A DNA stretch of 64,000 nt. Source: Geovibrio thiophilus. Its GTDB lineage: Bacteria > Chrysiogenota > Deferribacteres > Deferribacterales > Geovibrionaceae. The notes beneath the pieces were generated by a model. It worked only from the letters and a program-made list of their open reading frames with translations. It made no database searches and had not been told where the DNA came from. Below, in pieces: positions 2,654 to 54,435 of this stretch. Location of the stretch: NCBI RefSeq assembly GCF_004087915.1, contig NZ_CP035108.1, positions 2,480,001 to 2,544,000 of the forward strand. The letters run 5' to 3'. Within the stretch, counting starts at the first letter, position 1; each line of letters begins with the position of its first letter. A program made the position numbers and the translations under genes.

Positions 2654-4516
2654 TATATCCTCCTAACATCTAGTACGCATTAGGCGCGTGCGCCGTTTTG
2701 TGGCATACAAAGCATGAATTGTCCTGCACAGGGTAGTGGCAGTTGTTGCAGTGTCTGTTCAGGCTCGCTCCGGAGCCGCCCCAGCCCGGTCTGTGGCTGG
2801 AAGGGGGAGTTACGCTGTGACACTCTATGCAGCTGTCTTCCTTATGGCAGGTCGTACAGGAGCTTCTGTCCCATCTCGCCTCAAGTCCGTGACCCCTCTT
2901 CGTCCATGAAGGGGTATGGCTTCTCGGTGATACTTCCTGATGGCACTGGATACAGCTCACCTGATCGGTATGGCACTCAAGGCATTCCTGCTTGTTCACC
3001 CTGCTTGCCGAGCCGTGTCTGTCCATCCATGAAATATCGTGACTGGAGGGTTTATTCGATTCCACGGCAAAGGCATACACAGCAACAAGCAGCATAGCCA
3101 TTACCATAGAGAGTACAGTTATCTTCGCTTTCATAAATCTCCTCCCTAAAAAATGATGTTAGCCCACAGCTCTGCCGTGTAGTTCTTGTCAAGGCTCGTA
3201 TCAACATCATCATAGAACTCCGTATCCTCCATGCTCAGATCCGCCATGAGGCTGAGGATCTTCGTCGGCTGATACTGACCGCCTATGTAGTAGCTTCTTA
3301 CAGAGTCCTTCCTTCTGTCGTTTATGTAGTCATACTCATAACGGCTGAAGGACGTGCCTGCCCATACGTCCATAGTGCGTCCGACCTTCTGGCTGACCTG
3401 AACTCCGTACTGAAGACGCTCGTTGTCGTCTGAGTCGGGGGTGTTCTTTACATCCCAGTAGTCTACGCTGAACGATACATATGTGTTCTCGGAGGGGAGT
3501 CCGTAAATGTCGAATTTACCCTTGATTCTGGAATAATCACGGTTGTCGAAGTTCTCCGTGCCGCTCACTGCCTTGGTCTCATAGGTGAGTCCAGCGGCGA
3601 AGTTCTTAAGGAATGCCTGATATACTCCCGCTTCGTACTTGCTGTACTTGCTCTCCGCGAGAAGGGTATTCGTCAGGGGGTTCACCACGTATGAGTTCTC
3701 GTAGTCGACCTCATCAGTAAGACCTTCATATTTCAGCGTGAGGATAGTTCCCGTGGAGACTATCTCATAGGTGCCTTCGGCGTTAACTGTGGCCGCGTCA
3801 TTCAGAAGAGTGTAGGCGAGAACAAGGTTACCGTTAGGGATAGCCTGATCGAGCCTGAACTTGGTGTAGTCGTCATCTATGTCCGTTACATCGAGACGGA
3901 CATATTCTGCTCCTACCTTGGTCTGCTCCATCACCTTAACATTGATTCCGCCGCCGAACAGCGTGTCGTCATCAACATCATAGTAGTAGCTCACGGGTTT
4001 GCCCCCGAAAGCGTATACCTCTACCATCTCGCCGAGCTTCACTGAAGCGTCCGCTCCGTCAAGCTGGAAGGTGTTCTGATGGGAAAGATAGAAGCGTCCC
4101 ACGTTCAGGACTGTGTTCTTGATTACGCCGTCAAACTGAGCGTAGCCGTTGTACAGTCTCGGAGCCCAGTCATCATAACCGAGCTGGGTGTCAAGAGCGT
4201 CACGGTGATAATAGTAGTAATTATCTCCCCAGCTCTTCTTGTGGTCTCCGTCAATGTCATCCGCGAATCTGGCGAACGCGGCGAATCTCACCGTTCCGTC
4301 ACCGAGCTTCACTGCGTCCGTGTGGACACGGAGATACTGGTAAAAATCCTGATCGTCTGCGTAGTCGTTCGTACGCAGTCTGTAGCGGGACGTCAGCGTA
4401 AGGTAGATCTTGGTGTCCTCTGTAAGACCTATACCCTCGTAGCTCTCCTTGAACTGTCCGGGAGAGACCTGCTGCGTCCGGCTGTCCGGCGTGTTTGAAG
4501 CGCCGTTCTCAAATGC
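2632..4516. repeat. Duplicated barrel-cytochrome segment, copy 1
   Basis: This 1885 bp block matches 15879-17763 at a constant offset of 13247, with no indel and only scattered substitutions. It starts within the first codons of the molybdoenzyme Tat leader and ends at the signal peptide cleavage region of the barrel protein. Sequence outside these limits is clearly different in the two copies. Confidence 0.9.
2670..3134 (-). CDS. Periplasmic six-heme cytochrome c
   Basis: This 154-residue protein has an N-terminal signal peptide ending near YAFA. It has six CxxCH heme sites (CLECH, CIQCH, CTTCH, CIECH, CNNCH, CFVCH). Repeated SH-x-P-x-W segments between hemes are seen in small electron-transfer cytochromes. 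It probably passes electrons in the periplasm or through the outer membrane between the quinone pool and the molybdoenzyme encoded 16 bp downstream. The upstream neighbour is the outer-membrane barrel gene. It differs from the copy at 15917-16381 at one residue (Arg versus Lys near position 45). No close named family was recognised. Confidence 0.93.
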   Translation of the reverse strand: MKAKITVLSMVMAMLLVAVYAFAVESNKPSSHDISWMDRHGSASRVNKQECLECHTDQVSCIQCHQEVSPRSHTPSWTKRGHGLEARWDRSSCTTCHKEDSCIECHSVTPPSSHRPGWGGSGASLNRHCNNCHYPVQDNSCFVCHKTAHAPNAY

Positions 4517-4579
4517 CTGTGCCGTGCCGCTGAGAAGCAGAAGACACACAAGCATACAACTAACAGACAGGTAGCGCAT
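3146..4579 (-). CDS. Outer-membrane beta-barrel protein, copy 1
   Basis: The ATG at 4579 was chosen over a longer frame to 4621 because GGAGG lies just upstream and it gives a normal signal peptide ending near AQA. The mature part is rich in alternating Tyr/Phe/Asp strands and ends in Phe (ANIIF), typical of BAM-inserted barrels. It is about 477 residues, the size of a 16- to 18-strand barrel. There is no N-terminal CxxC as in MtrB. The cytochrome and molybdoenzyme genes follow within 20 bp. By analogy with the Shewanella dms operon, which pairs a barrel with a multiheme cytochrome and DmsA, it may form an outer-membrane electron conduit or export path; this is inference. Confidence 0.88.
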   Translation of the reverse strand: MRYLSVSCMLVCLLLLSGTAQAFENGASNTPDSRTQQVSPGQFKESYEGIGLTEDTKIYLTLTSRYRLRTNDYADDQDFYQYLRVHTDAVKLGDGTVRFAAFARFADDIDGDHKKSWGDNYYYYHRDALDTQLGYDDWAPRLYNGYAQFDGVIKNTVLNVGRFYLSHQNTFQLDGADASVKLGEMVEVYAFGGKPVSYYYDVDDDTLFGGGINVKVMEQTKVGAEYVRLDVTDIDDDYTKFRLDQAIPNGNLVLAYTLLNDAATVNAEGTYEIVSTGTILTLKYEGLTDEVDYENSYVVNPLTNTLLAESKYSKYEAGVYQAFLKNFAAGLTYETKAVSGTENFDNRDYSRIKGKFDIYGLPSENTYVSFSVDYWDVKNTPDSDDNERLQYGVQVSQKVGRTMDVWAGTSFSRYEYDYINDRRKDSVRSYYIGGQYQPTKILSLMADLSMEDTEFYDDVDTSLDKNYTAELWANIIF

Positions 4580-4689
4580 ACTTCCTCCTATTTTTTTAAA
4601 TAAGCGCACATTTAGGAGCAATCCGAAATGCTTAAGTTGACTTTAAAGGATAATTAGACTTAAAGCAACGGTTAAAGTTATGTAAGCAG

Positions 4690-5660
4690 AGGTGGTCCCC
4701 AAAATCTGTACAGTATGCTAAGGTGTAAAAAGCATATTGGAGGACCATGCGATGTCAAAGGCCAAACGTACCCGTTACTCAGCGGAGTTTAAATCGAAAG
4801 TAGCTCTTGAAGCTCTTCGAGAAGAGCTGACTTTATCAGAATTATCAGCCAAGTATAATGTTCACCCGAACCAGATTTCCAAGTGGAAGAAAGAAGCCAT
4901 AGAGGGTATGGCATCAATCTTTGCCAACAAGCCCTGCAAGTCTGAAGAGCGAACAGAGTCTGAGATAAAGGATCTTCACGCAAAAATAGGCCAGCTGACG
5001 GTGGAACGTGATTTTTTGCAGCGAGCCTTCGGGAAACGGTAAGCATATCCCGGAGGAAGCTTATGATCGATAACGTAAAAAGCAGCCTGTCCATCAGCAG
5101 TCAGTGCGAGCTTTTGGGCATCAGCCGCTCCTGCTATTACTATCAAGAGTCAGGCGAGTCGGCGTTGAATCTTGAACTCATGCGCATAATAGATAAGCAG
5201 TTTATGGCGACACCTGACTTTGGTTCCAGACAGATGGCAAAGCTTATCAGAAGGTATGGATACAATGTTAGCCGCAAGCGTGTCAGCAGGCTTATGAAGA
5301 AGATGGGCATAGCTGCTGTTTATCAGAAGCCCAAGACCAGTGTTCCACATCCGGAGCATAAGACATATCCGTATCTGCTTAGAGATATTGATATAAACCG
5401 CCCTAATCAAGTTTGGTGCTCGGATATTACCTACATACCAATGAGAAGAGGATTCCTCTATCTGGTGGCTATTATGGATTGGTACAGCAGAAAAGTTCTC
5501 AGTTGGAGACTTTCAAACAGCCTTGATTCTGATTTCTGCGTGGCTGCGCTTGAGGAAGCCCTTGAAAAGTACGGAACACCTGAAATCTTTAATACTGATC
5601 AGGGGAGTCAGTTTACCAGCTATGAATTTACGCAAACCCTTAAAGATGCAGGGATTAAGA
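4690..5660 (+). mobile_element. IS3-family element, copy 1, truncated
   Basis: The left end (TGGTCCCCAAAATCTG) is present near 4693, followed by orfA and the first two-thirds of orfB. The element stops abruptly at the codons for AGIK in orfB, where the right end of inverted copy 2 begins. The missing remainder does not reappear beyond copy 2, so an insertion was accompanied by an adjacent deletion. Confidence 0.92.
4737..5042 (+). CDS. IS3-family OrfA (helix-turn-helix), copy 1
   Basis: This 101-residue HTH_Tnp_1-type protein has the HTH in residues 10-55 and a C-terminal leucine-rich coiled coil (SEIKDLHAKIGQLTVERDF). The open frame begins with a TTG; the ATG five codons later is a likely alternative start. 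A TTTTTTG run at 5012-5018 could allow a -1 shift into the orfB frame, which is open from there to the orfB ATG. The sequence is identical in all three copies. Confidence 0.9.
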   Translation: MEDHAMSKAKRTRYSAEFKSKVALEALREELTLSELSAKYNVHPNQISKWKKEAIEGMASIFANKPCKSEERTESEIKDLHAKIGQLTVERDFLQRAFGKR

Positions 5661-5680
5661 CAGGTGGTACCCATCTTTAG
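5063..5680 (+). pseudogene. IS3-family OrfB transposase, C-terminally truncated
   Basis: The first ~199 residues match the intact 289-residue transposases at 5689 and 18388. They include the first two catalytic acids (CSDITYI and NTDQGSQ of the DDE core). The frame then runs into inverted copy 2 and stops after seven foreign residues. The catalytic Glu of MIERIW is lost, so this copy cannot be active. Confidence 0.95.
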
Positions 5681-5688
5681 TACAGTTT

Positions 5689-6558
5689 TTAGACTGAAAT
5701 AAGGTGGAAACTCTCAGTCATTTTATCATCTTTTTTCCAGATTTGAATCTCTAATCCGTTATAAGCTTCATATGGCGTTCTGTCGCCCAGAGAAGAATGC
5801 GGTCTTCCTGTATTGTAGAAATTTATCCAGTCCGCCAGTCCTCGTTTCAGCTCGTGTCCGTTATCAAACGCATGGAGATAGACAAAGCTATATTTCAATG
5901 TCCGCCAGATACGCTCAATCATGACATTATCCATCCAACGCCCCTTGCCGTCCATAGAGACCTTAATCCCTGCATCTTTAAGGGTTTGCGTAAATTCATA
6001 GCTGGTAAACTGACTCCCCTGATCAGTATTAAAGATTTCAGGTGTTCCGTACTTTTCAAGGGCTTCCTCAAGCGCAGCCACGCAGAAATCAGAATCAAGG
6101 CTGTTTGAAAGTCTCCAACTGAGAACTTTTCTGCTGTACCAATCCATAATAGCCACCAGATAGAGGAATCCTCTTCTCATTGGTATGTAGGTAATATCCG
6201 AGCACCAAACTTGATTAGGGCGGTTTATATCAATATCTCTAAGCAGATACGGATATGTCTTATGCTCCGGATGTGGAACACTGGTCTTGGGCTTCTGATA
6301 AACAGCAGCTATGCCCATCTTCTTCATAAGCCTGCTGACACGCTTGCGGCTAACATTGTATCCATACCTTCTGATAAGCTTTGCCATCTGTCTGGAACCA
6401 AAGTCAGGTGTCGCCATAAACTGCTTATCTATTATGCGCATGAGTTCAAGATTCAACGCCGACTCGCCTGACTCTTGATAGTAATAGCAGGAGCGGCTGA
6501 TGCCCAAAAGCTCGCACTGACTGCTGATGGACAGGCTGCTTTTTACGTTATCGATCAT
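5689..6558 (-). CDS. IS3-family OrfB transposase (DDE), intact
   Basis: This 289-residue rve-type integrase-core transposase has the N-terminal HTH_21 region (ISRSCYYY) and all three catalytic acids: D of CSDITYI, D of NTDQG and E of MIERIW. The C-terminal motif NTGRPHSSLG is typical of IS3-family OrfB. A GGAGG site precedes the ATG, so it can be made separately or as an OrfAB fusion after a -1 shift. The protein is identical to the copy at 18388-19257. Confidence 0.96.
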   Translation of the reverse strand: MIDNVKSSLSISSQCELLGISRSCYYYQESGESALNLELMRIIDKQFMATPDFGSRQMAKLIRRYGYNVSRKRVSRLMKKMGIAAVYQKPKTSVPHPEHKTYPYLLRDIDINRPNQVWCSDITYIPMRRGFLYLVAIMDWYSRKVLSWRLSNSLDSDFCVAALEEALEKYGTPEIFNTDQGSQFTSYEFTQTLKDAGIKVSMDGKGRWMDNVMIERIWRTLKYSFVYLHAFDNGHELKRGLADWINFYNTGRPHSSLGDRTPYEAYNGLEIQIWKKDDKMTESFHLISV

Positions 6559-6578
6559 AAGCTTCCTCCGGGATATGC

Positions 6579-6884
6579 TTACCGTTTCCCGAAGGCTCGC
6601 TGCAAAAAATCACGTTCCACCGTCAGCTGGCCTATTTTTGCGTGAAGATCCTTTATCTCAGACTCTGTTCGCTCTTCAGACTTGCAGGGCTTGTTGGCAA
6701 AGATTGATGCCATACCCTCTATGGCTTCTTTCTTCCACTTGGAAATCTGGTTCGGGTGAACATTATACTTGGCTGATAATTCTGATAAAGTCAACTCTTC
6801 TCGAAGAGCTTCAAGAGCTACTTTCGATTTAAACTCCGCTGAGTAACGGGTACGTTTGGCCTTTGACATCGCATGGTCCTCCAA
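6579..6884 (-). CDS. IS3-family OrfA, copy 2
   Basis: Identical in sequence to the OrfA at 4737-5042 and 18062-18367. The HTH and coiled-coil regions are intact and the TTTTTTG run needed for a possible OrfAB frameshift is kept. Confidence 0.92.
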   Translation of the reverse strand: MEDHAMSKAKRTRYSAEFKSKVALEALREELTLSELSAKYNVHPNQISKWKKEAIEGMASIFANKPCKSEERTESEIKDLHAKIGQLTVERDFLQRAFGKR

Positions 6885-6941
6885 TATGCTTTTTACACCT
6901 TAGCATACTGTACAGATTTTGGGGACCACCTCTGGTTACAC

Positions 6942-8702
6942 TCAAAAATCATAACGCCCGTAAAACGTTTCCTTATTCTTTTGAGCATATTTTTTTATCA
7001 TGGACAAATCTCTTTTCAAAAACTCTGCTACGCCGTCTTCTCTTATTATTTTTTCATACAATCCTTTACGCTCTGCATATTCGGGTCTGAATAGCACAAT
7101 AGAAAGCATACATCCAATATAGTGAAGGCTGAGTATATTACCAAGATAATCATCAAGAAATTTCTCATCACCAAGGTTAAGAGAAAGAATTTTATCTGTA
7201 AGCATAATTGCAAATCTCTTTAAATTCTTGCTGTCAATATCGTCCAAAAGACCATAGTCGAAACTGCGCTTATACTGCAAATCATGAGCAAGCTGGAGCA
7301 TTGGTTTGTAGAATGATATATTTCCATTATTACAAAACATCTTAGCAATTATCAGTCGCACTATTTCAAGATAAATATTAACAGTATTTACTCCTGTCCA
7401 TGTATTGGGATAAGGATAATAGAAATACCGCATCGGGATGAACTCACCTTCGGCACGTTGAGCCACTCTTGTGCCTGGATAAGGATTGAGCAGAAACATA
7501 TTGGACTGTACTCTAACGTTTTTTATATCAGAGCATTGTACAGTGAAATCTATAATCTCATTAATCATCTTTTGTGAACCTAGTTCATCTTCATAAGGAG
7601 AGAGTATATATCCTAAAAAAACTTCTTGTTTACATTCTGTTTTTCTATCTTTTAAAAAAAAGATGAAATCCTTAAGAATTCTATATTCATCATCAAGTTC
7701 AGCAGTCGAGCGCAAGAGCCTGTATAGCCTTCTTCCAGTAAAACTATCTTCGATCACTCTATCTCTGCCTATAAAAAAAGTGTTTATATTAAACTGCTCA
7801 ACTAGCCTGTAGAAATCTTCATCCAAGTCGGCAGGATCGACAAAAACATTCATTCCACCAAAGCCTGCATGACTATACACATTTTTCATAAAAGCTTCTG
7901 TATTTTGCCTGTTAATACGGCTGAATGGAGCACTGTCTGACAGTGACAAAATTATTTCAGATGGTAATTGTTCTTTGATTTCTTCAACTGATTTTTTAAT
8001 CATTTTTCCAAGAACAGGAGTGTATTTCCTGTCAGTTTTGGCATGCTCAATGACACAGTAGTCACATCCATTCGGGCACGAATCGTTAAACATTGTTCTT
8101 ATTTCAATGTTTTCACCTGATACACTTACCATAGGAATAACAGGGTAAGGAAATGTTCCTTTACCATTGCCAGACAATATGCCGTCTTTCAGTACATACA
8201 TTCCTTTTGATGGAAGATTACCGTAAAATGCGTTCCTTCCATTTTCTTTTAAAATATTGACTGTACCGTCCACAAGCATCGCAGATGCAAACCTCAGAAA
8301 TGGCTCTCCACCACCTCTGAAAACGGCATCCACATCCTCGTTTTCAAGCGTGTTTTTTATCTCGTCAACAGAAAAAAAATGAGGACCACCTGCAATAATG
8401 ACCGCGTCGGGTTTGTTTGCTTTGATCTTTTTTGCAAAGTCCATTGCAACAGCATATGTGCTTGTCCAGCAGGATATGCAGTAAAGCTTTGCAGCATGTT
8501 CTGCCAGAAAACGTTCAAATGCCTGTTCAACATCAGCAATATATTTGTCTTCCTCTTTTTCAGGGAAAACAACAATATCCTTAACTCCGATTTCATACAG
8601 ATAGTGAGTCAACGTTAGAGCAGCTATGTCTTCATCAAGCATATGAAAAAATGATGATGTCTCCCTAGCGATAATAAACATCACATCATGTATCTGCATC
8701 AC
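6942..8702 (-). CDS. Cobalamin-type radical SAM protein in the second reductase set
   Basis: This 586-residue protein has an N-terminal Rossmann-like B12-binding-type region (residues ~1-140, with IIAGGPHFF and GGGEPFL). A radical SAM core follows, with the cluster motif CPNGCDYC (C-x3-C-x2-C) near residue 210. The N-terminal domain lacks the DxHxxG motif, as usual for base-off B12 radical SAM enzymes. The helical C-terminal ~170 residues are not recognised. It is the last gene of the leftward cluster after the TorD-like gene, with a 274 bp gap that contains a strong hairpin. The substrate is unknown; peptide, cofactor or small-molecule modification are all possible. Base composition is AT-rich relative to the cytochrome and barrel genes. 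Confidence 0.85.
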   Translation of the reverse strand: MMQIHDVMFIIARETSSFFHMLDEDIAALTLTHYLYEIGVKDIVVFPEKEEDKYIADVEQAFERFLAEHAAKLYCISCWTSTYAVAMDFAKKIKANKPDAVIIAGGPHFFSVDEIKNTLENEDVDAVFRGGGEPFLRFASAMLVDGTVNILKENGRNAFYGNLPSKGMYVLKDGILSGNGKGTFPYPVIPMVSVSGENIEIRTMFNDSCPNGCDYCVIEHAKTDRKYTPVLGKMIKKSVEEIKEQLPSEIILSLSDSAPFSRINRQNTEAFMKNVYSHAGFGGMNVFVDPADLDEDFYRLVEQFNINTFFIGRDRVIEDSFTGRRLYRLLRSTAELDDEYRILKDFIFFLKDRKTECKQEVFLGYILSPYEDELGSQKMINEIIDFTVQCSDIKNVRVQSNMFLLNPYPGTRVAQRAEGEFIPMRYFYYPYPNTWTGVNTVNIYLEIVRLIIAKMFCNNGNISFYKPMLQLAHDLQYKRSFDYGLLDDIDSKNLKRFAIMLTDKILSLNLGDEKFLDDYLGNILSLHYIGCMLSIVLFRPEYAERKGLYEKIIREDGVAEFLKRDLSMIKKYAQKNKETFYGRYDF

Positions 8703-8899
8703 ATTTACCGACAGATACGCGTCCTATCGTGCGACTACGTAGAGCATTCAAAACGCATAAATCAAGCAATGTATTCTTTGTCTTTTTTATCAATTCCTTC
8801 TCTCCTGATTAAAACCGTTTGAGATAGTTCAGATAACATTTATACTCATGTAAACAAACGATAAAACGCTTTTGCAATTGTGTTCAATCTCATCGTAGA

Positions 8900-8940
8900 C
8901 CAATCCTTCTGTAAATTACTTCAATTTATAGAAGGATTGG
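8900..8940. promoter_or_regulatory. Strong hairpin between torD-like and radical SAM genes
   Basis: The arms CCAATCCTTCT (8900-8910) and AGAAGGATTGG (8930-8940) pair perfectly, and the inside continues with TAAATT/AATTTA around an ACTTC loop. No T-run follows on the leftward strand, so it may be an attenuator, processing site or protein-binding site rather than a simple terminator. Confidence 0.6.
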
Positions 8941-8976
8941 ACTTATATTATGCTCTATTTATTGGTGTGGTGTCAA

Positions 8977-9675
8977 CTATTCATTACTATAACTGATTAA
9001 ATTAACAAGAAACTTGTAATCGATTCTTATAAAGCCCATAGTGAGGTCTGCAAAGGCATTATAAAAGCCATCGTAGTCAGCTTTTCTCAAATCATTTCCA
9101 AAAAGATGGACCCATTTCATAAGGTGTTTTTCCATGAATATTTTGTGAGCTTCTAGCTTACCCTGAACTTCAGCCATCTCATTTTCTAGAATAGCATTAA
9201 ATACTTGCTCGTTCAGCATACTCAAAAAACTCAATTCAACAGCTATATGATCTTCAGGCTCTTTAAAATCCTTACCGATACCAATATTGTGTTTTGCGTA
9301 AAATTCTATTACTTCATCACGCTGTTCCTGCATAACAAGTTTATTTGAAGACAGATAAACAGATTCATAAGGATGTGCGTGCGGAATAACATTATTTGGA
9401 GAAACATTTAGGAATATTGTCGCAAACTTTCTTGCAAGTTCTTCTATGTACTCATTCTCATCTTTAATACTACTTATACGCTCTATTAATTTTTCAACAC
9501 CTTTCAGATACATCTCATCTGATGTATTTTCACCCAATTTACGAAGTACAGGAATAAAGCTTATTATCTGTTGTAGATAGGCTACATCAGTTTCACGTGT
9601 GTATGCTCGTGACAGAAAGCTGTACATTCTACTCCTTAACCCTACGATATCTTTTAAATTAATAGTTTGTTCCAT
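8977..9675 (-). CDS. TorD/DmsD-family molybdoenzyme chaperone
   Basis: This 232-residue all-helical protein has the family signature EPEDHIAVELSFL near residue 135 and the upstream PYESVY element. TorD/DmsD proteins bind the Tat leader and apo-form of DMSO reductase-family enzymes until the molybdenum cofactor is inserted. The likely client is the Tat-exported subunit at 12961-15900 in the same cluster. It starts with a GGAGAGGG site upstream of the ATG. Confidence 0.88.
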   Translation of the reverse strand: MEQTINLKDIVGLRSRMYSFLSRAYTRETDVAYLQQIISFIPVLRKLGENTSDEMYLKGVEKLIERISSIKDENEYIEELARKFATIFLNVSPNNVIPHAHPYESVYLSSNKLVMQEQRDEVIEFYAKHNIGIGKDFKEPEDHIAVELSFLSMLNEQVFNAILENEMAEVQGKLEAHKIFMEKHLMKWVHLFGNDLRKADYDGFYNAFADLTMGFIRIDYKFLVNLISYSNE

Positions 9676-9819
9676 TACCCTCTCCTTATTGTTATTAAAA
9701 CTCTAATTCTCCAGAAAAGAAATCTGGTGTCTTTGAAATAAAGTCAAGTGCGTTCTCATTAGTACTCTTTTTGTAAAAGTCCCTCTTACTTTCTTTTTCG
9801 GGCGGATTAGCCTAAAAGT

Positions 9820-12141
9820 TTACTTAATTTTTGAATCTAAGACAGAACACTTATTGTTTTCAATAACCTTATGAACTTTCAGAGTCATCAATTTATGGCT
9901 TGTATTTCTGATTATTTCTTTTTTTGCAGGAAAAAGATTTTCTAAACACGCAAGCATAATCTCCCAATAAATTATATCATCTTTTCCGTCAATATTTTTT
10001 ATTATATTGTATGCTTCATTATACTTGTTTAGTTTCATATATGAATAAGCTTTTTTTAGTATAACACGTTCTATTTCATGTGACTTATTATAGTACTGCA
10101 TTGCCTCATGATGCTTATCAGCATATGAAAGAATGTCGCCAAATGTTTCTGCAACTATATGAGTTGAATTAGTGCTAATCATACTTTCATAAAGTTTTTC
10201 AATTTCATAAAATTTATGCATTTTAGAGTAGAAAGAAATCAGGAGAAGTAATTTTTGGGGAATCCTAGCAAGATGAGTGTAAGGAATACTTTTTAGTGTA
10301 AGAAAGAAAAGAAGTTCATTATGTGACTTCTCAAAAACTTCATGATTTATAAAACTGTAATTATGCCATAAATGATCCCCAGAGAGCTGCTTAACATCTT
10401 TAATTTTAACTTTATTAAATATTCCGATTATTGTAATTATAACACTGACATCAGAACGATCGTCCAACGAAACTTTTATTGAGTCCTTTACCTTCATCCC
10501 TTTCAAATATTCTTTTGGGAAATTATGTCTGAGTTCATTTAATCCTGGTTTTAGATAATGTTTTTCAGGTAGATATTGACCTGCATATTGACAGAATATA
10601 ATCACACGGCTACTGTTTTGCACTACACCTGATACTGAATACAGTTCCGCATGCCTCAGTAGCTTTTTTAATTCTTTTTTATCAGCAGAAATATTCTGCC
10701 TGAAATCATTAATGCACTGCATTATAATTTCTTTATCTTCAAGTAGTGCCCCTAAATGAATCCAGTATTCATAAAAACGTTTTTCTTCTTTTAAAATATC
10801 TTTGTGTTCTAAGATAAAATCGATGGTATGAAATATATTCATACAGTTTTTTACATTAAAGTCGGTTTCTGCATTATAGAGTGTCCAAGTAGCCTGTATT
10901 TTCTTTATGTCAGATCGTGTCAAACAATCAGTTTCGTATTCGTGCCAAAAAGAAAGATAGCGAGGTATATGTTTGGTGGCAGTCTTAAAACCATATTTTC
11001 CAGGATTTCTCCCGTAGACAGATCCGTAAACTAACTGTAATTGTTGAGCACATGAATTTGCATATATAGGTATTCCATAGCCTCTGACGGTACTGATTGT
11101 TTTTATTGCATCTTCATAAGTTTCTCCAGGTTGACCATACATAGAGAATAGTTCAACTTTTACACTCAGTGATTGTGTAAAAGTGACAATTTCATGAAAT
11201 TTAGATAAAGACACATCTTTACACATATTACTAAGTATTTTGTCAGTCCCTGATTCTAATCCGAAACCTATGCAATAAAGACCTGCTCTTTGCATCAGCT
11301 TCAACAGTTCATTATCAACCATATCAACTCTAGTTTGGCACCAAAAAGGTATTTTTATACCTCTTTTGATTTTTTGCTCCAACAGTTCAATTGTTCGATC
11401 CTTGTATGCTGTAAAATTAGGATCGCCTATCCATAAATTTTCCATACCTACTGCTTCTAAATATGACATTTCTTCTAAAACATGTTCTACAGAGTGAAAA
11501 CGTATATTTCTATGATTAAATAAAGGAGTAACACAAAAATTACAAAAATGTTCACACCCCCTGGATGTAAAAATACAAGCCGATTTTTTCATACTTAAAT
11601 CAATAATTTGATTAGTATATGGCGAAGGGTATAAATCAAGATTTTGAGGTAAGCAACTAGGTTGTTTGGTGGCAATGATTTCATTGTTGTCTTTAAACAA
11701 AATCCCAGGAACGTTATGGAGCGTATTTCCATTCTCTAATGCTTCAGCAATCTTAAGTGTAGTTAACTCTCCTTCACCTCTATTGCAGATTATGTCAAAA
11801 TCATAAAGTTCCATAAGCCCATCCACTGGGAGAAAAAGAGCTTGTGGTCCGCCTAATATCAACTTTGTTTCTGGATAATATTCTTTTATAAAACGTGCAA
11901 AAAAACGTATACGTTCCATCAAGTAATGATAGCCGGTGAATCCTATGACTTTAGGTCTAAATTCTTGCATTAACTTGTTTAGGCTTTCTAACGATAGGGA
12001 TGCATCTTTTAAATCGTCAACGATTAAAACATCATGGTTATGTTTTTTGAGATATGCTGCTATGTATCCTTGCAAAATAGGAATAGTATTGGTTGAATGT
12101 AATGTATCAAGTTGGTTCATATTAATCAAAACAATGTTCAT
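9820..12141 (-). CDS. Cobalamin-type radical SAM protein with long C-terminal extension
   Basis: This 773-residue protein has a B12-binding-type domain (residues ~1-140; VIGFTGYHY, LILGGPQ, RGEGE). A radical SAM core follows, with CEHFCNFC near residue 195 and the GLESG element. The ~330-residue C-terminal part looks alpha-helical and repeat-like (TPR-type: EAMQYYNKSHE, KYNEAYNII). It lies 69 bp after the Fe-S subunit and before torD, so it is embedded in the reductase operon. The family includes methyltransferases and other radical enzymes; the helical tail suggests a protein partner. The gene is strongly AT-rich. Its function in a respiratory operon is not known to me. Confidence 0.85.
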   Translation of the reverse strand: MNIVLINMNQLDTLHSTNTIPILQGYIAAYLKKHNHDVLIVDDLKDASLSLESLNKLMQEFRPKVIGFTGYHYLMERIRFFARFIKEYYPETKLILGGPQALFLPVDGLMELYDFDIICNRGEGELTTLKIAEALENGNTLHNVPGILFKDNNEIIATKQPSCLPQNLDLYPSPYTNQIIDLSMKKSACIFTSRGCEHFCNFCVTPLFNHRNIRFHSVEHVLEEMSYLEAVGMENLWIGDPNFTAYKDRTIELLEQKIKRGIKIPFWCQTRVDMVDNELLKLMQRAGLYCIGFGLESGTDKILSNMCKDVSLSKFHEIVTFTQSLSVKVELFSMYGQPGETYEDAIKTISTVRGYGIPIYANSCAQQLQLVYGSVYGRNPGKYGFKTATKHIPRYLSFWHEYETDCLTRSDIKKIQATWTLYNAETDFNVKNCMNIFHTIDFILEHKDILKEEKRFYEYWIHLGALLEDKEIIMQCINDFRQNISADKKELKKLLRHAELYSVSGVVQNSSRVIIFCQYAGQYLPEKHYLKPGLNELRHNFPKEYLKGMKVKDSIKVSLDDRSDVSVIITIIGIFNKVKIKDVKQLSGDHLWHNYSFINHEVFEKSHNELLFFLTLKSIPYTHLARIPQKLLLLISFYSKMHKFYEIEKLYESMISTNSTHIVAETFGDILSYADKHHEAMQYYNKSHEIERVILKKAYSYMKLNKYNEAYNIIKNIDGKDDIIYWEIMLACLENLFPAKKEIIRNTSHKLMTLKVHKVIENNKCSVLDSKIK

Positions 12142-12210: not shown

Positions 12211-12957
12211 CTATTTTTTAACAAAAATGATATTGGGTTCGATTCCACTACTGCTAGCAAAGTCTTCATTTGGCATTTGAGTATACTCTACAACACTCTT
12301 ACCAGCACTAGCCCATTTTGCTCTCAGCTCATCAACAGGACCAGCATCTAAAGCTCTGTTAATACAAGCGGCGACACATGCCGGTTTAAGCCCTTCTTTG
12401 ATTCTGTCCAGACATAACGTACATTTTGTCATTCTTGGTCTGGTGGGGTCATCCAAGCCATACTGACTAAAATTAGGTGCATAAAACTGTGGTGCGCCCC
12501 ATGGACATGCTTCTTTACAGCTGCCACACGAAATACAAGTATCATTGTTTACAAGAACAATACCATGAGATTCTTCTTTGTATATAATACCCATTGGACA
12601 AGCGGCAACACAAGCAGGGTTTGTACAGTGGTTACAGGCAACTGAAGTAAATTGCAACGAATAAGGAAAAGCTCTTTCGTTGGAATTCACCCTCCGCCAG
12701 TCTTCTTTCATATAGTATTTTCTGTTTTGTTCAAAATTTGTTTCTCCTTCACTGTTAAGATAGAAAGATTTATTGTCCATTTCATTAATATCGACAACAT
12801 AAGTGCCCGAACTATACCAGTCAGTATTTGGGTTCATAGGATCACTATTTATCTTATAATCGCCACGCCTGTCGTCATTCCAGCATTTACATGCAAGCGC
12901 ACAAGCATTACAGCCGACACATCTAGTCTGATCAAAATAAAATCCCCACTGGCTCAT
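12211..12957 (-). CDS. DmsB-like four-cluster ferredoxin subunit
   Basis: This 248-residue protein has sixteen cluster-type cysteines in four groups: CVGCNACALAC, CNHCTNPACVAAC, CISCGSCKEAC and the CTLC...CVAAC set. This is the layout of DmsB/PhsB/NrfC electron-transfer subunits. It has no signal peptide and would leave the cell with the Tat-exported catalytic subunit encoded 3 bp upstream. It hands electrons to the Mo subunit. No DmsC-type membrane anchor gene is seen nearby, which supports input from the six-heme cytochrome instead. Confidence 0.94.
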   Translation of the reverse strand: MSQWGFYFDQTRCVGCNACALACKCWNDDRRGDYKINSDPMNPNTDWYSSGTYVVDINEMDNKSFYLNSEGETNFEQNRKYYMKEDWRRVNSNERAFPYSLQFTSVACNHCTNPACVAACPMGIIYKEESHGIVLVNNDTCISCGSCKEACPWGAPQFYAPNFSQYGLDDPTRPRMTKCTLCLDRIKEGLKPACVAACINRALDAGPVDELRAKWASAGKSVVEYTQMPNEDFASSSGIEPNIIFVKK

Positions 12958-12960
12958 AGT

Positions 12961-15900
12961 TTACCTCCTATCAGGATGAACTTTGCTAACTTCACAAAGA
13001 TTACCGTTAAAATGATTATCTCCAACCTGTCCACACAGCGGATCTTTAGGACTGCCGAAGTCTTTGTCATGAGTTAAAGTGTTTTCACAACCACCAATAT
13101 CGACATGGACAATATGTTTATAATAATCTACTGTTTCTACAGTTTTGGTTTCTACTGAATTCCCCAAGTCTATGTCATACCAAGCTTCGTAAGTTTCACT
13201 TCCTTTCCTGTACCACACTCCATGTGGCAGACTCACAACACCTTCATTTATCGTAGGAGAAATCCCCACTCCTACTTTTATGCAGCCCCAGTCATTAAAT
13301 ATGTAAACCTCGTCTCCATCCTTGATACCTCTTTTATAAGCATCACTTGGATTCATAATTGCACGTTTAGGGTAGTCAAACTTGTCGCGTATTACTGAAA
13401 CATTGTCATAAACAGTGTGAGCCCTATTTCTTGCATGTTTTGTTGTAAACTGCATCGTATACTCAATACCTTTAACGCCCGTATTTTCTTTTTTCATTAT
13501 TTTGTCATAACCTTGGTAAGGCTCCACATACATTGCTCTTGGTTCTATCCTATAGGCGCCCTCTTGGGTGCTTAGATCACACTTGTCTCTATAGTAATAG
13601 AACGGTGAAAAGAATTGGATCTTTCCTGTCTCAGTCGTATAGGGTAGATAATTCATCAAAACTTCCATAGGGTTGGGGATGTTATCAGTATCAATTTCTT
13701 TTTGAATTTTACCAGTAATCTTTACTTTTTCAAATGTAGGCTTTTCAATATCTGCTGGTACTTCTGCTGTCTCCCAAGCTTCCTTGCAAAGTTCTTCATC
13801 TGTTTTGCCATCTTTGCCGTAAGAAATTGGAATACCTTTAGCACTAAGTTTTTTAGCGAGTTCAATGTCTATATCTACATCTGATCTGGTATCGTACATA
13901 GGTTCAACAAGCTTATTTTGAAAATATGTAGCTTCCCCGCTAGTGAAAAAAGGTTTTTCATGGTGTGAACAGGCAGGTAATATCACATCTGCATAAGCAG
14001 CTGTAGGTGTCATAAACTGTTCATACATAACGTAATGCTTAATTTTATAGTGGCTGCCTTCTTTTTGTGTAAAAATATTTACTGCTTTGTTTGTATTTGG
14101 ACATGTATTAAATGAATTGGTGATATGATAGGAACCTAACACCATGTCCACTTCAAGTTTAGCAGTTTCAGGAGAACCGAGATCAACTTCAGAAACGTAT
14201 TTAACATCTTTGTAAAATTGTTCCTTATTTCTTCCATCCCTGCCTGTAATAACAAGGTCAACAAACTTATTTGCATCCACAGCAATAAATGGATAAGTTG
14301 TCCCCTTCCCAAGCTGTGGGTACATAATACCTCCAGGGAATGTCACAGGGTTTGATTCTCCATCACTTGAGTTAACTCCGAGGTTACCGCCCTTTTTAAT
14401 AGTATGACCGCACATTGCAGCGAGACATATCATCATCCATACATTATGCATGCCGTTATTTGTTTTCTGACCACCATTATTTCCATTTTCCAGAAAGACA
14501 TCTCCTGCATGTGCAAAAGCATCTGCTAGATTTATTATTGTAGTTTTCTCTACACCAGATAGTTGAGAGGCCCATGTTACAACAGCATCTTGGTTGTCAG
14601 GAATACCTAATTCTACTGCTTTGTCAACGCCCAGTTTATCTAGATACTCAACAAATGACATTCCTGTAGGGACATGAATCTCCTGATTGTATAAATTTGC
14701 ATCAGCTAAAGGATGCTGGTTATTATTAAGTTGTTTTGTAAATGAGAAGTCTAATTTATGCATAACGTAACCTGGATGTTTAGGCGCTTCAACAAAAGGA
14801 AAAGGATTTCCAGCACTGTCATTGCCTGCATCTTGTGTCGGATAGAACCCAAAACAATTGGTTTTTATAAAATCATCATTATGCCATCCATTTTTGTAAA
14901 TGATATAGGCCATTGCAACTGCTATTGCAGAATCAGTCTGCGGTCTTACCTGAATAAACTGGGGGAGATCGTACTCAGGAAACCCAGTAGAAAGAATTGA
15001 AGCGGTGTCTGTATATTGTGCGTCTATAGTAACTATTGGTACACCAGCTTCTTTAGCTTTAGTCAGAAAAAAAGTTTTATTAGGTTCTTTTACAGCTGGA
15101 TCGGCCCCCCACTGTATGATGAAATCAGAATGTTTATAGTTATACACAGAGTTACCACCTGCTAGTCCTGGTAATAGACCAACAGAACCTACAGATGCAA
15201 AAAGCATATTTTCAAATGAAGGAGCACCTGTCGGAAGTATTGTAGGACCAAGATACTGAGATAAAGCAGAACCTGCGCCCTCTGCAAAACCCATAAAAGG
15301 CATACCCGCAAACATCATCGTATTGTGTAGCCCATTTGGAGGACCAGCAACCATAGGAACATAAGGTAGTTCACCTGTTGCATATCTGGAGTGTACTTCA
15401 GAAATCATGTCTGCCACTCGCTCAAGCGCTTCATCCCAGGTTACTCTTTTAAAACCAGTAACATCTCCTCGTTCTTTTGTTTGGACAAGCGGGTATTTCA
15501 GCCTGTCAGGTGAATAAGTTCTTTTAATCTGTGCATAGCCTCTTACACATGCTCTTGTTTGCACAAACTCAATAGATTCATCTTTATCAAGTGAATCTTC
15601 CCTGGGTATGTCTCCCGCAGAAGTGAGCTTTACGATTTTTGCCTTTGGTGTTCCAAAATCCTTTACATAGAACTTAAACGGGCATCTTCCTCCACAGTTG
15701 TGTGGGTGTGTTCCCATTACTGCTGTAAGCTCATTATCAAATTCAAAACTATCTTGATTTGTAACAACAGAACCATACTCATCTGGTCCGCCGGAACCGC
15801 CACATCCAAAAAGAGCAGCAGTAGTACTCAAGGCTCCAGCCCATTTCATAAACGATCTGCGAGTGATCTGTTTTTCCGTAAGTTTATCTTTAAGACTCAT
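12961..15900 (-). CDS. Tat-exported DMSO reductase-family molybdopterin subunit
   Basis: This 979-residue catalytic subunit starts with a Tat leader (TRRSFMKW) and a possible lipobox (LFGC) before a GGSGG linker. The first Fe-S region is HPHNCGGRC...RACVRG, so His stands where DmsA has the first Cys. Molybdopterin domains follow, including DRLKYPL, a likely Mo-ligand Ser in GAPSFENM, and the C-terminal dinucleotide-binding domain (NPSDAYKRGIKDGDEV). AGGAGG precedes the ATG, and the first seven codons equal those of the paralogue at 1-2653, after which they diverge. It heads the cytochrome-linked operon with DmsB-like, radical SAM and TorD-like genes. The acceptor (S-oxide, N-oxide, selenium, arsenic or sulfur compound) cannot be decided. 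Confidence 0.93.
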   Translation of the reverse strand: MSLKDKLTEKQITRRSFMKWAGALSTTAALFGCGGSGGPDEYGSVVTNQDSFEFDNELTAVMGTHPHNCGGRCPFKFYVKDFGTPKAKIVKLTSAGDIPREDSLDKDESIEFVQTRACVRGYAQIKRTYSPDRLKYPLVQTKERGDVTGFKRVTWDEALERVADMISEVHSRYATGELPYVPMVAGPPNGLHNTMMFAGMPFMGFAEGAGSALSQYLGPTILPTGAPSFENMLFASVGSVGLLPGLAGGNSVYNYKHSDFIIQWGADPAVKEPNKTFFLTKAKEAGVPIVTIDAQYTDTASILSTGFPEYDLPQFIQVRPQTDSAIAVAMAYIIYKNGWHNDDFIKTNCFGFYPTQDAGNDSAGNPFPFVEAPKHPGYVMHKLDFSFTKQLNNNQHPLADANLYNQEIHVPTGMSFVEYLDKLGVDKAVELGIPDNQDAVVTWASQLSGVEKTTIINLADAFAHAGDVFLENGNNGGQKTNNGMHNVWMMICLAAMCGHTIKKGGNLGVNSSDGESNPVTFPGGIMYPQLGKGTTYPFIAVDANKFVDLVITGRDGRNKEQFYKDVKYVSEVDLGSPETAKLEVDMVLGSYHITNSFNTCPNTNKAVNIFTQKEGSHYKIKHYVMYEQFMTPTAAYADVILPACSHHEKPFFTSGEATYFQNKLVEPMYDTRSDVDIDIELAKKLSAKGIPISYGKDGKTDEELCKEAWETAEVPADIEKPTFEKVKITGKIQKEIDTDNIPNPMEVLMNYLPYTTETGKIQFFSPFYYYRDKCDLSTQEGAYRIEPRAMYVEPYQGYDKIMKKENTGVKGIEYTMQFTTKHARNRAHTVYDNVSVIRDKFDYPKRAIMNPSDAYKRGIKDGDEVYIFNDWGCIKVGVGISPTINEGVVSLPHGVWYRKGSETYEAWYDIDLGNSVETKTVETVDYYKHIVHVDIGGCENTLTHDKDFGSPKDPLCGQVGDNHFNGNLCEVSKVHPDRR

Positions 15901-17763
15901 TATATCCTCCTAACATCTAGTACGCATTAGGCGCGTGCGCCGTTTTGTGGCATACAAAGCATGAATTGTCCTGCACAGGGTAGTGGCAGTTGTTGCAGTG
16001 TCTGTTCAGGCTGGCTCCGGAACCGCCCCAGCCCGGTCTGTGGCTGGAAGGGGGAGTCACGCTGTGACACTCTATGCAGCTGTCTTCCTTATGGCAGGTC
16101 GTACAGGAGCTTCTGTCCCATCTCGCCTCAAGTCCGTGACCCCTCTTCGTCCACGAAGGGGTATGGCTTCTCGGTGATACTTCCTGATGGCACTGGATAC
16201 AGCTCACCTGATCGGTATGGCACTCAAGGCATTCCTGCTTGTTCACCTTACTTGCCGAGCCGTGTCTGTCCATCCAGGAAATATCGTGACTGGAGGGTTT
16301 ATTCGATTCCACGGCAAAGGCATACACAGCAACAAGCAGCATAGCCATTACCATAGAGAGTACAGTTATCTTCGCTTTCATAAATCTCCTCCCTAAAAAA
16401 TGATATTAGCCCACAGCTCTGCCGTGTAGTTCTTGTCAAGGCTCGTATCAACATCATCATAGAACTCCGTATCCTCCATGCTCAGATCCGCCATAAGGCT
16501 GAGGATCTTCGTCGGCTGATACTGACCGCCTATGTAGTAGCTTCTTACAGAGTCCTTCCTTCTGTCGTTTATGTAGTCATACTCATAACGGCTGAAGGAC
16601 GTGCCTGCCCATACGTCCATAGTGCGTCCGACCTTCTGGCTGACCTGAACTCCGTACTGAAGACGCTCGTTGTCGTCTGAGTCGGGGGTGTTCTTTACAT
16701 CCCAGTAGTCTACGCTGAACGATACATATGTGTTCTCGGAGGGGAGTCCGTAAATGTCGAATTTACCCTTGATTCTGGAATAATCACGGTTGTCGAAGTT
16801 CTCCGTGCCGCTCACTGCCTTGGTCTCATAGGTGAGTCCAGCGGCGAAGTTCTTAAGGAATGCCTGATATACTCCCGCTTCGTACTTGCTGTACTTGCTC
16901 TCCGCGAGAAGGGTATTCGTCAGGGGGTTCACCACGTATGAGTTCTCATAGTCGACCTCATCAGTAAGACCTTCATATTTCAGCGTGAGGATAGTTCCCG
17001 TGGAGACTATCTCATAGGTGCCTTCGGCGTTAACTGTGGCTGCGTCATTCAGAAGAGTGTAGGCGAGAACAAGGTTACCGTTAGGAATAGCCTGATCGAG
17101 CCTGAACTTGGTGTAGTCGTCATCTATGTCCGTTACATCGAGACGGACATACTCTGCCCCTATCTTGGTCTGCTCCATCACCTTAACATTGATTCCGCCG
17201 CCGAACAGCGTGTCGTCATCAACATCATAGTAGTAGCTCACGGGTTTACCCCCGAAAGCGTATACCTCTACCATCTCGCCGAGCTTCACTGAAGCGTCCG
17301 CTCCGTCAAGCTGGAAGGTGTTCTGATGGGAAAGATAGAAGCGTCCCACATTCAGGACTGTGTTCTTGATTACGCCGTCAAACTGAGCGTAGCCGTTGTA
17401 CAGTCTCGGAGCCCAGTCATCATAACCGAGCTGGGTGTCAAGAGCGTCACGGTGATAATAGTAGTAATTATCTCCCCAGCTCTTCTTGTGGTCTCCGTCA
17501 ATGTCATCCGCGAATCTGGCGAACGCGGCGAATCTCACCGTTCCGTCACCGAGCTTCACTGCGTCCGTGTGGACACGGAGATACTGGTAAAAATCCTGAT
17601 CGTCTGCGTAGTCGTTCGTACGCAGTCTGTAGCGGGACGTCAGCGTAAGGTAGATCTTGGTGTCCTCTGTAAGACCTATACCCTCGTAGCTCTCCTTGAA
17701 CTGTCCGGGAGAGACCTGCTGCGTCCGGCTGTCCGGCGTGTTTGAAGCGCCGTTCTCAAATGC
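15879..17763. repeat. Duplicated barrel-cytochrome segment, copy 2
   Basis: This is the partner of 2632-4516, the same length and collinear. It keeps the ribosome-binding sites and intergenic spacers of the cytochrome and barrel genes. Most differences are synonymous. Confidence 0.9.
15917..16381 (-). CDS. Periplasmic six-heme cytochrome c, copy 2
   Basis: Same 154-residue six-CxxCH cytochrome as at 2670-3134 with one amino-acid change (Lys for Arg near residue 45). Signal peptide and heme sites are all intact. It sits 16 bp ahead of the complete molybdoenzyme gene and 11 bp after the barrel gene. It is the likely electron donor to the 12961-15900 enzyme or the link to an outer-membrane conduit. 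Confidence 0.93.
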   Translation of the reverse strand: MKAKITVLSMVMAMLLVAVYAFAVESNKPSSHDISWMDRHGSASKVNKQECLECHTDQVSCIQCHQEVSPRSHTPSWTKRGHGLEARWDRSSCTTCHKEDSCIECHSVTPPSSHRPGWGGSGASLNRHCNNCHYPVQDNSCFVCHKTAHAPNAY

Positions 17764-17832
17764 TTCCGCCTTCATTGCCGTAACTGACAATAAAAAACAG
17801 AAGAGCATACACGTAACCGACAGGTAGCGCAT
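16393..17832 (-). CDS. Outer-membrane beta-barrel protein, copy 2
   Basis: This 479-residue protein is nearly identical in its mature part to the barrel at 3146-4579 (one noted change, Ile for Val in TKIGAEY). Its signal peptide is clearly different (FCFLLSVTAMKAEA versus VCLLLLSGTAQA). It starts at ATG 17832 with GGAGG upstream and ends in the barrel signature Phe. It is the first gene of the second reductase operon. The 180 bp between its start and IS copy 3 must contain the promoter, but no clear box was identified. Confidence 0.9.
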   Translation of the reverse strand: MRYLSVTCMLFCFLLSVTAMKAEAFENGASNTPDSRTQQVSPGQFKESYEGIGLTEDTKIYLTLTSRYRLRTNDYADDQDFYQYLRVHTDAVKLGDGTVRFAAFARFADDIDGDHKKSWGDNYYYYHRDALDTQLGYDDWAPRLYNGYAQFDGVIKNTVLNVGRFYLSHQNTFQLDGADASVKLGEMVEVYAFGGKPVSYYYDVDDDTLFGGGINVKVMEQTKIGAEYVRLDVTDIDDDYTKFRLDQAIPNGNLVLAYTLLNDAATVNAEGTYEIVSTGTILTLKYEGLTDEVDYENSYVVNPLTNTLLAESKYSKYEAGVYQAFLKNFAAGLTYETKAVSGTENFDNRDYSRIKGKFDIYGLPSENTYVSFSVDYWDVKNTPDSDDNERLQYGVQVSQKVGRTMDVWAGTSFSRYEYDYINDRRKDSVRSYYIGGQYQPTKILSLMADLSMEDTEFYDDVDTSLDKNYTAELWANIIF

Positions 17833-18061
17833 ACTTCCTCCTTATGGAAATAAACATTTGTATAATGTTCTGTAAGTATTATTGTTTGTAAAAGGAGGAA
17901 TTAGAACAGTGAATCAAACACGAAAAGAAGTGATTCTTTAGGTATACAATACTTACCATAAAGCATGTTTAGGGCAATAAATTTTGTCAATACGCCAATG
18001 CGAAGAGAACATAGAGGTGGTCCCCAAAATCTGTACAGTATGCTAAGGTGTAAAAAGCATA

Positions 18062-18367
18062 TTGGAGGACCATGCGATGTCAAAGGCCAAACGTACCCGT
18101 TACTCAGCGGAGTTTAAATCGAAAGTAGCTCTTGAAGCTCTTCGAGAAGAGCTGACTTTATCAGAATTATCAGCCAAGTATAATGTTCACCCGAACCAGA
18201 TTTCCAAGTGGAAGAAAGAAGCCATAGAGGGTATGGCATCAATCTTTGCCAACAAGCCCTGCAAGTCTGAAGAGCGAACAGAGTCTGAGATAAAGGATCT
18301 TCACGCAAAAATAGGCCAGCTGACGGTGGAACGTGATTTTTTGCAGCGAGCCTTCGGGAAACGGTAA
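18062..18367 (+). CDS. IS3-family OrfA, copy 3
   Basis: 101-residue HTH protein identical to the other two OrfA copies. It ends 20 bp before the orfB ATG; the -1 frame is open across the gap from the TTTTTTG run. Confidence 0.93.
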   Translation: MEDHAMSKAKRTRYSAEFKSKVALEALREELTLSELSAKYNVHPNQISKWKKEAIEGMASIFANKPCKSEERTESEIKDLHAKIGQLTVERDFLQRAFGKR

Positions 18368-18387
18368 GCATATCCCGGAGGAAGCTT

Positions 18388-19257
18388 ATGATCGATAACG
18401 TAAAAAGCAGCCTGTCCATCAGCAGTCAGTGCGAGCTTTTGGGCATCAGCCGCTCCTGCTATTACTATCAAGAGTCAGGCGAGTCGGCGTTGAATCTTGA
18501 ACTCATGCGCATAATAGATAAGCAGTTTATGGCGACACCTGACTTTGGTTCCAGACAGATGGCAAAGCTTATCAGAAGGTATGGATACAATGTTAGCCGC
18601 AAGCGTGTCAGCAGGCTTATGAAGAAGATGGGCATAGCTGCTGTTTATCAGAAGCCCAAGACCAGTGTTCCACATCCGGAGCATAAGACATATCCGTATC
18701 TGCTTAGAGATATTGATATAAACCGCCCTAATCAAGTTTGGTGCTCGGATATTACCTACATACCAATGAGAAGAGGATTCCTCTATCTGGTGGCTATTAT
18801 GGATTGGTACAGCAGAAAAGTTCTCAGTTGGAGACTTTCAAACAGCCTTGATTCTGATTTCTGCGTGGCTGCGCTTGAGGAAGCCCTTGAAAAGTACGGA
18901 ACACCTGAAATCTTTAATACTGATCAGGGGAGTCAGTTTACCAGCTATGAATTTACGCAAACCCTTAAAGATGCAGGGATTAAGGTCTCTATGGACGGCA
19001 AGGGGCGTTGGATGGATAATGTCATGATTGAGCGTATCTGGCGGACATTGAAATATAGCTTTGTCTATCTCCATGCGTTTGATAACGGACACGAGCTGAA
19101 ACGAGGACTGGCGGACTGGATAAATTTCTACAATACAGGAAGACCGCATTCTTCTCTGGGCGACAGAACGCCATATGAAGCTTATAACGGATTAGAGATT
19201 CAAATCTGGAAAAAAGATGATAAAATGACTGAGAGTTTCCACCTTATTTCAGTCTAA
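18388..19257 (+). CDS. IS3-family OrfB transposase, copy 3
   Basis: 289-residue DDE transposase with all catalytic acids and the C-terminal NTGRPHSSLGDRTP motif. It is identical to the inverted copy 2, which implies recent transposition. Confidence 0.96.
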   Translation: MIDNVKSSLSISSQCELLGISRSCYYYQESGESALNLELMRIIDKQFMATPDFGSRQMAKLIRRYGYNVSRKRVSRLMKKMGIAAVYQKPKTSVPHPEHKTYPYLLRDIDINRPNQVWCSDITYIPMRRGFLYLVAIMDWYSRKVLSWRLSNSLDSDFCVAALEEALEKYGTPEIFNTDQGSQFTSYEFTQTLKDAGIKVSMDGKGRWMDNVMIERIWRTLKYSFVYLHAFDNGHELKRGLADWINFYNTGRPHSSLGDRTPYEAYNGLEIQIWKKDDKMTESFHLISV

Positions 19258-34142: not shown

Positions 34143-34248
34143 CAGACAGATTCTTACATCCCCTCACATGCTGCCTTTAGCCTTCAACAGCCCTGCTTCG
34201 CATATGCGGGAAAAAACTTATTGCATAATCCGGCAAAAAAATCAATCC

Positions 34249-42659: not shown

Positions 42660-42674
42660 TAAAATAGCCTCCAT

Positions 42675-52896: not shown

Positions 52897-52915
52897 TAAT
52901 TTGTTATTGAAAAAT

Positions 52916-54407: not shown

Positions 54408-54435
54408 TTATAAATAATATAAAGTAAATCTTACA

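Follow-up and report, generated by a model that had tools for sequence, protein, structure and literature searches.

The window considered here is a stretch of 64,000 nucleotides (bases 2480001-2544000) from the complete genome of Geovibrio thiophilus (2,997,552 bp), a bacterium of the same family as Denitrovibrio acetiphilus. It carries an operon that can be assigned by sequence to the dimethyl sulfoxide (DMSO) reductase family, in which two B12-type radical S-adenosylmethionine (SAM) proteins, here called rSAM1 and rSAM2, are encoded together with a molybdenum (Mo) catalytic subunit, an iron-sulfur (FeS) subunit and a TorD-type chaperone. The function proposed for the pair, at somewhat under an even chance, is post-translational modification of the Mo (or FeS) subunit, with C-methylation the likeliest reaction. 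Held more tentatively is the wider proposal that two new B12-type radical SAM families C-modify an exported molybdenum-bis(pyranopterin guanine dinucleotide) (Mo-bisPGD) reductase. If so, this would be the first case of a DMSO-reductase-family protein modified by radical SAM enzymes, and would parallel in bacteria the tailoring of methyl-coenzyme M (methyl-CoM) reductase.

The genes are listed below in their order of transcription.

16393-17832, minus strand: beta-barrel-like outer-membrane protein (porin), 479 amino acids, named from sequence appearance (no Pfam family matched); variable partner of the core cassette.
15917-16381, minus strand: hexahaem c-type cytochrome (six CxxCH), 154 amino acids; variable partner of the core cassette.
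12961-15900, minus strand: Mo-bisPGD catalytic subunit, 979 amino acids, from Pfam and a DmsA/YnfE-like model.
12211-12957, minus strand: DmsB-like iron-sulfur (4Fe-4S) subunit, 248 amino acids (DmsB-like model 150 bits, cut-off 214).
9820-12141, minus strand: rSAM2, B12-binding and radical SAM domains followed by a tail of about 400 amino acids resembling tetratricopeptide repeats (TPR-like), 773 amino acids, from Pfam and NCBIfam.
8977-9675, minus strand: TorD-family chaperone, 232 amino acids (PF02613 90 bits; TorD model 107 bits, cut-off 132).
6942-8702, minus strand: rSAM1, divergent B12-binding-domain radical SAM protein, 586 amino acids, from the open reading frame list, Pfam and the AlphaFold2 fold.

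Coordinates, strands, domains and Cx3Cx2C motifs bear out the original prediction of two cobalamin-type radical SAM proteins inside a molybdoenzyme operon. The start of rSAM1 in the open reading frame list is GTG, with an alternative ATG as the next codon, and by alignment the protein is complete at both ends.

Taken singly, rSAM1 falls slightly short of the Pfam cut-offs, both for B12-binding (PF02310, 30.9 bits against 32.1) and for Radical_SAM (24.0 bits). Eight of nine family members match the B12-binding domain (best 5e-12), and the three cysteines of the Cx3Cx2C motif (CPNGCDYC at 209-216) are kept in all eight members that cover the region. The AlphaFold2 model (pLDDT 84.8, pTM 0.87) matches the PDB structures of TsrM, TokK, CysS and AprD4 in Foldseek (TsrM E 1.6e-11). 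Because the family taken together agrees with the predicted fold, rSAM1 is assigned as a B12-type radical SAM protein despite its sub-cut-off scores, and the fold in the model is that of the cobalamin-dependent radical SAM methylases. None of the NCBIfam radical SAM models scored over its cut-off (best 19 bits against 251), and the MgmA model TIGR04014 gave no match. The SCWTS sequence in the lower-face loop after strand 3 is compatible with cobalamin binding, though not diagnostic. Use of cobalamin is probable for both proteins.

rSAM2 is the more readily recognized of the two, with Radical_SAM (65 bits) and PF02310 (33.5 bits) both exceeding the cut-off. Its motif is CEHFCNFC at 196-203, and the three cysteines are kept in all three full-length rSAM2 sequences. 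The best curated model is PhpK (TIGR04479), which scores 129 bits over residues 14-353 against a cut-off of 600; the resemblance to MgmA (TIGR04014) is weak (102 bits, cut-off 360), and further curated models of the B12-radical SAM group match below the PhpK score. The long tail noticed at first reading is present (about residues 360-773). Its supposed repeat character is weakly supported by TPR-like matches, and it is mostly helical in a low-confidence AlphaFold2 model that is otherwise unusable (pLDDT 43, three sequences in the alignment). No signal was seen in rSAM1 or rSAM2, and both are taken as cytoplasmic. A total of five B12-binding domains were found in the whole genome, those of methylmalonyl-CoA mutase (MCM), MetH, a TIGR04013 protein, rSAM1 and rSAM2. 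That two of the five occur in one operon points to more than chance. No close paralogue of either protein was found in the host genome.

The Mo subunit is of the DmsA/YnfE type (TIGR02166 280 bits, below the cut-off of 777.7 bits) and has the molybdopterin/molybdopterin guanine dinucleotide-binding domains PF00384 (91 bits) and PF01568 (69 bits). Its twin-arginine translocation (Tat) signal, with an RRSFMKWAG motif, scores 21 bits, slightly short of the cut-off, and is accompanied by a lipobox-like LFGC. The FS0 motif is H-x3-C-x3-C, and the invariant Ser228 is the probable Mo ligand. In a tree of the Mo proteins compared, the clade of this subunit is separate with 100/100 support. A lipobox-like motif follows the Tat signal in many members of the clade, and the sequences suggest that many of them are Tat-exported lipoproteins.

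A survey of gene neighborhoods, which the original prediction had proposed, found the cassette conserved in relatives and its genes co-occurring with the Mo clade. Mo, FeS, rSAM2, rSAM1 and TorD are colinear in D. acetiphilus (G018, L047) and in a congener of the window genome (G021, L048), and these five are the genes common to all three full cassettes. Identities to the window proteins in D. acetiphilus and G021, respectively, are 79 and 78% for Mo, 82 and 71% for FeS, 69 and 60% for rSAM2, 47 and 48% for rSAM1, and 45 and 49% for TorD. The rSAM2 and rSAM1 frames overlap, by 14 nucleotides in G018 (from the likely ATG) and by 4 nucleotides (TTGA) in G021. The two rSAM genes had been described as flanking the chaperone, which holds in the window genome and fails in both relatives. 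Since the relatives have adjacent, overlapping rSAM genes with TorD after them, the window order is probably derived. The gaps in the two relatives are 62 and 39 nucleotides before rSAM2 and 37 and 42 nucleotides before TorD. These gaps and the overlapping rSAM genes leave no small-open-reading-frame space for a precursor peptide, and a cluster for a ribosomally synthesized and post-translationally modified peptide (RiPP) was rejected.

The cytochrome and outer-membrane barrel accompany the cassette in two of the three genomes. In both the window and D. acetiphilus the gene before that of the Mo subunit encodes a hexahaem cytochrome, so that a multihaem cytochrome or its haem might be thought the target of the rSAM proteins. 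Neither a cytochrome nor a porin gene adjoins the Mo gene in G021, however, and in the window's genome almost identical copies of the cytochrome/porin pair stand before other molybdoenzyme genes that have no rSAM genes with them. A haem-protein target is thus extremely unlikely, and it was dropped as a main explanation on the strength of the G021 operon. As there is no place for a RiPP precursor to fit and a cytochrome is missing from one operon, the target is likely to be the Mo (or FeS) subunit, the cofactor or a small molecule. The original prediction had named the enzyme, a heme protein, a cofactor or the substrate. Its link between the radical SAM proteins and the Mo enzyme is upheld by conservation and co-occurrence, while the heme protein falls away; no specific support was found for its suggestion of demethylation of a metalloid.

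Co-occurrence was examined in 51 genomes of the phylum, Deferribacterota (20 genera, several of the genomes drafts), and in a thin sample of other phyla; for rSAM1 the total came to 385 genomes. rSAM1 is present in nine of the 51; a profile search recovered the same nine, all with at least 497 bits, and no others at E 1e-10. Profile A3 finds the Mo clade in 11 genomes, with a gap between the lowest score of 398 bits (a fragment) and 351 bits for the next Mo proteins. Circularity in this scoring is small, because eight of the nine A3 rows came from Mo-protein searches and one (G042) from the rSAM1 neighborhood. All nine rSAM1 genomes are among the 11 with the Mo clade (hypergeometric 1.8e-8). 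Counted by genus, rSAM1 and the clade occupy the same seven genera of 20 (1.3e-5). Both statistics ignore phylogeny and sequence missing from drafts. G039 and G040, which have the Mo clade and lack rSAM1, contain subgroup II only, of the three Mo subgroups. In five of the nine (G000, G018, G021, G042 and G049) rSAM1 lies within about 10 kb of a Mo-clade gene, a proximity with a probability of about 1e-7 under uniform placement. rSAM2 is more restricted: the genomes that have it are the same four that have Mo subgroup I (G000, G018, G021 and G049), as a contig-edge fragment in G049 (48% over 136 amino acids). rSAM1 was absent from about 334 genomes outside the phylum, where two generic hits of 42-51 bits were obtained, and from plasmids and viral contigs. 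A scan of genome contigs beyond the phylum for rSAM2 gave generic B12-radical SAM matches only (25-31%). MocR/GntR-type regulators adjoin or precede subgroup III Mo operons (L050 11326-12774, L053 5010-6455, L098 235-1665 and L052 5715-7163), and an aminotransferase-like domain was detected in two of these four. Their presence there may mean that the effector or substrate is an amine or resembles an amino acid.

In the scheme proposed, rSAM1 and rSAM2 would serve specifically to mature the exported DmsA-like molybdoenzymes of this subfamily. They would act in the cytoplasm while the TorD chaperone holds the apo-catalytic subunit, before Tat export; this timing is suggested because the Mo subunit is exported via Tat while the radical enzymes are cytoplasmic. 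Radical chemistry drawing on SAM, a [4Fe-4S] cluster and, probably, cobalamin would place at least one modification on residues of the Mo subunit (the FeS subunit being the less likely recipient), C-methylation again being likeliest. Mo subgroups I and III would both need rSAM1 as the core factor; rSAM2, with its TPR-like tail docking a protein, would add a step specific to subgroup I. Here we infer cobalamin binding, methylation, protein target and timing alike. The scheme follows the analogy of MgmA and Mmp10, which act on methyl-CoM reductase. It is favored by the conserved cassette, by the co-occurrence of rSAM1 with the Mo clade and of rSAM2 with subgroup I, by the lack of space for a precursor peptide, by the methylase fold of rSAM1 and the weak resemblance of rSAM2 to MgmA, by the position of the rSAM genes in a maturation block beside TorD, by the G021 operon, which leaves Mo and FeS as the sole other conserved structural proteins, and by the host having other B12 enzymes, MCM and MetH.

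Several observations weigh against modification of the subunit. The structurally closest enzymes, TsrM, TokK, CysS and AprD4, act on small or carrier-bound molecules, and PhpK, the best curated similarity of rSAM2, is a small-molecule P-methyltransferase. AprD4, which has the rSAM1 fold, is a dehydratase that is not known to use cobalamin. An exploratory comparison picked out seven positions (N68, R72, Y122, P219, R824, V830 and W907) that subgroups I and III share and II lacks, and singled out none of them as the target residue. rSAM1 is unlinked to Mo genes in G030, G032 and G038, and the statistics disregard phylogeny and draft gaps, as noted. Finally, G045 has kept rSAM1 with Mo subgroup II only. 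That genome looks to have lost a subgroup III Mo operon, because a 73-amino acid MocR-type regulator remnant beside its rSAM1 matches the arrangement in G042, where the regulator stands between rSAM1 and the subgroup III operon.

With most structural neighbors acting on small molecules and rSAM1 sometimes standing apart from the Mo genes, the main rival is that the pair makes or alters a small molecule (substrate, product or electron carrier) that is reduced or detoxified by the Mo enzyme in the periplasm or outside the cell. The MocR-type regulators (GntR plus aminotransferase-like) by several subgroup III operons likewise hint at amine or amino-acid control. This explanation is rather unlikely, if a serious one. 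The three full cassettes have neither a transporter nor any further biosynthetic gene in common, the reductase is exported while the rSAM proteins stay in the cytoplasm, the TPR-like tail of rSAM2 is more typical of protein partners, and the tight link to one Mo clade exceeds the need of a general metabolite.

The pair could also alter the metal centre, either the bis-pterin cofactor or the surroundings of FS0, to give a variant cofactor. The rSAM genes adjoin that of TorD, a type of chaperone by which cofactor insertion is guided. The Mo subgroups differ at the first FS0 ligand, which is His in I and II and Gly in III, and Tyr122 beside FS0 is common to I and III, where outgroup Mo enzymes have Arg or His. 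The His-type FS0 also occurs, however, in subgroup II of genomes without rSAM1; it does not track the rSAM genes, and the first-ligand change was rejected as their correlate. We know of no B12-radical SAM enzyme that acts on molybdopterin. An altered metal centre is therefore improbable.

Three further features lie in or beside the operon.

5658-6933, minus strand: IS3-family insertion sequence, an inverted 99.9% identical copy of 18013-19288; it stops 8 nucleotides past the rSAM1 stop codon.
18013-19288, plus strand: IS3-family insertion sequence upstream of the operon, from self-comparison.
8897-8976, minus strand: promoter-like site TTGACA-18 nt-CATAAT (8976-8947) and 21-nucleotide inverted repeat (8897-8943), a consensus match only.

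The two insertion sequence copies bracket the operon, and insertion sequences are also near the cassette in relatives. The cassette genes are low in G+C (0.32-0.39; rSAM2 0.318, rSAM1 0.365, Mo 0.392), whereas the window as a whole has 0.447 and two other parts of the genome have 0.476-0.497. These features could mean that unrelated rSAM genes were brought in by a mobile element as chance neighbors. The mobility concerns the whole cassette, however, and the same genes, at 47-79% identity and with overlapping rSAM frames, are found in two relatives and co-occur phylum-wide. Chance is very unlikely. The original prediction had named an unconserved neighborhood as what would refute it, and insertion by chance was rejected on the conserved neighborhood and the co-occurrence with the Mo clade.

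The porin-cytochrome pair before the cassette is GC-rich (0.51-0.535) and near-identical to pairs before other molybdoenzymes of the genome (porin 98-99%, cytochrome 99-100% in most copies). The identity of the two window copies (15879-17842 and 2632-4589) extends through the Mo start codon. Together with the AT-rich cassette and its insertion sequence brackets, this makes it appear that a foreign Mo-FeS-rSAM-TorD module was joined to a resident porin-cytochrome unit. The genome has five near-identical copies of the pair (porin 98-100%), each before a different molybdoenzyme gene: the two in the window, L015 9792-11722 and 15152-17428, and L016 3734-5727, where the porin frame is split. About five porin copies in D. 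acetiphilus score alike against the window porin. The pair looks like a shared export/electron-transfer unit whose copies are kept alike by gene conversion, with molybdoenzyme cassettes swapped in.

The promoter-like site, a strong match, and the inverted repeat immediately after it lie in the TorD-rSAM1 gap directly after torD and were seen in the G. thiophilus genome. Because they precede rSAM1, the gene may be transcribed separately in the window. The repeat stands at the expected transcription start of rSAM1 and is a possible operator or 5' hairpin. A third IS3-family copy (4688-5659) brings those in the window to three, 99.8-100% identical, one of them interrupted by another, and a type I restriction HsdR-like gene (19909-22992) lies shortly past the right-hand copy. 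Self-comparison of the window also showed direct repeats with periods of about 99-139 nucleotides (33736-34144, 42674-43094, 52915-53210, 54435-54742 and 57025-57302).

Much of anaerobic respiration is carried out by enzymes of the DMSO reductase family, whose tailoring is generally believed to go no further than the insertion of the cofactor with the help of a TorD-type chaperone. An operon of this kind with a radical SAM pair of its own suggests an unrecognized maturation step. D. acetiphilus is cultured, with a complete genome and the whole cassette, so that the idea is open to test.

The cassette can be compared with several known systems. A Tat-exported DmsA-like subunit, a DmsB-like FeS subunit and a TorD/DmsD-type chaperone are shared with DmsABC and YnfEFGH; the cassette differs in falling below all curated cut-offs and in having no membrane anchor DmsC. 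The cytochrome and outer-membrane barrel found in two of three cassette genomes recall the extracellular dmsEFABGH of the Shewanella type. To our knowledge two radical SAM genes are not part of described Dms operons, that of Shewanella included, and among the papers available to the literature search none connects radical SAM proteins to these molybdoenzymes. rSAM1 shares with TsrM, TokK and CysS an N-terminal Rossmann-type B12 domain and a radical SAM barrel with Cx3Cx2C (Foldseek E 1.6e-11 to 1.5e-9), at 11-13% identity and a TM-score of about 0.5; the substrates of those enzymes are tryptophan or carrier-bound small molecules. rSAM2 is most like the PhpK family of P-methyltransferases among curated models, and differs in its tail and its molybdoenzyme neighborhood. 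The proposed function has its parallel in MgmA (TIGR04014), the methyl-CoM reductase glutamine C-methyltransferase, and Mmp10, the arginine C-methyltransferase, which are also B12-type radical SAM proteins and likewise serve a single anaerobic metalloenzyme. The mgmA gene is frequently found in a cluster with the mcr operon (PMC11796369). The partner of the window pair is instead a Mo-bisPGD reductase.

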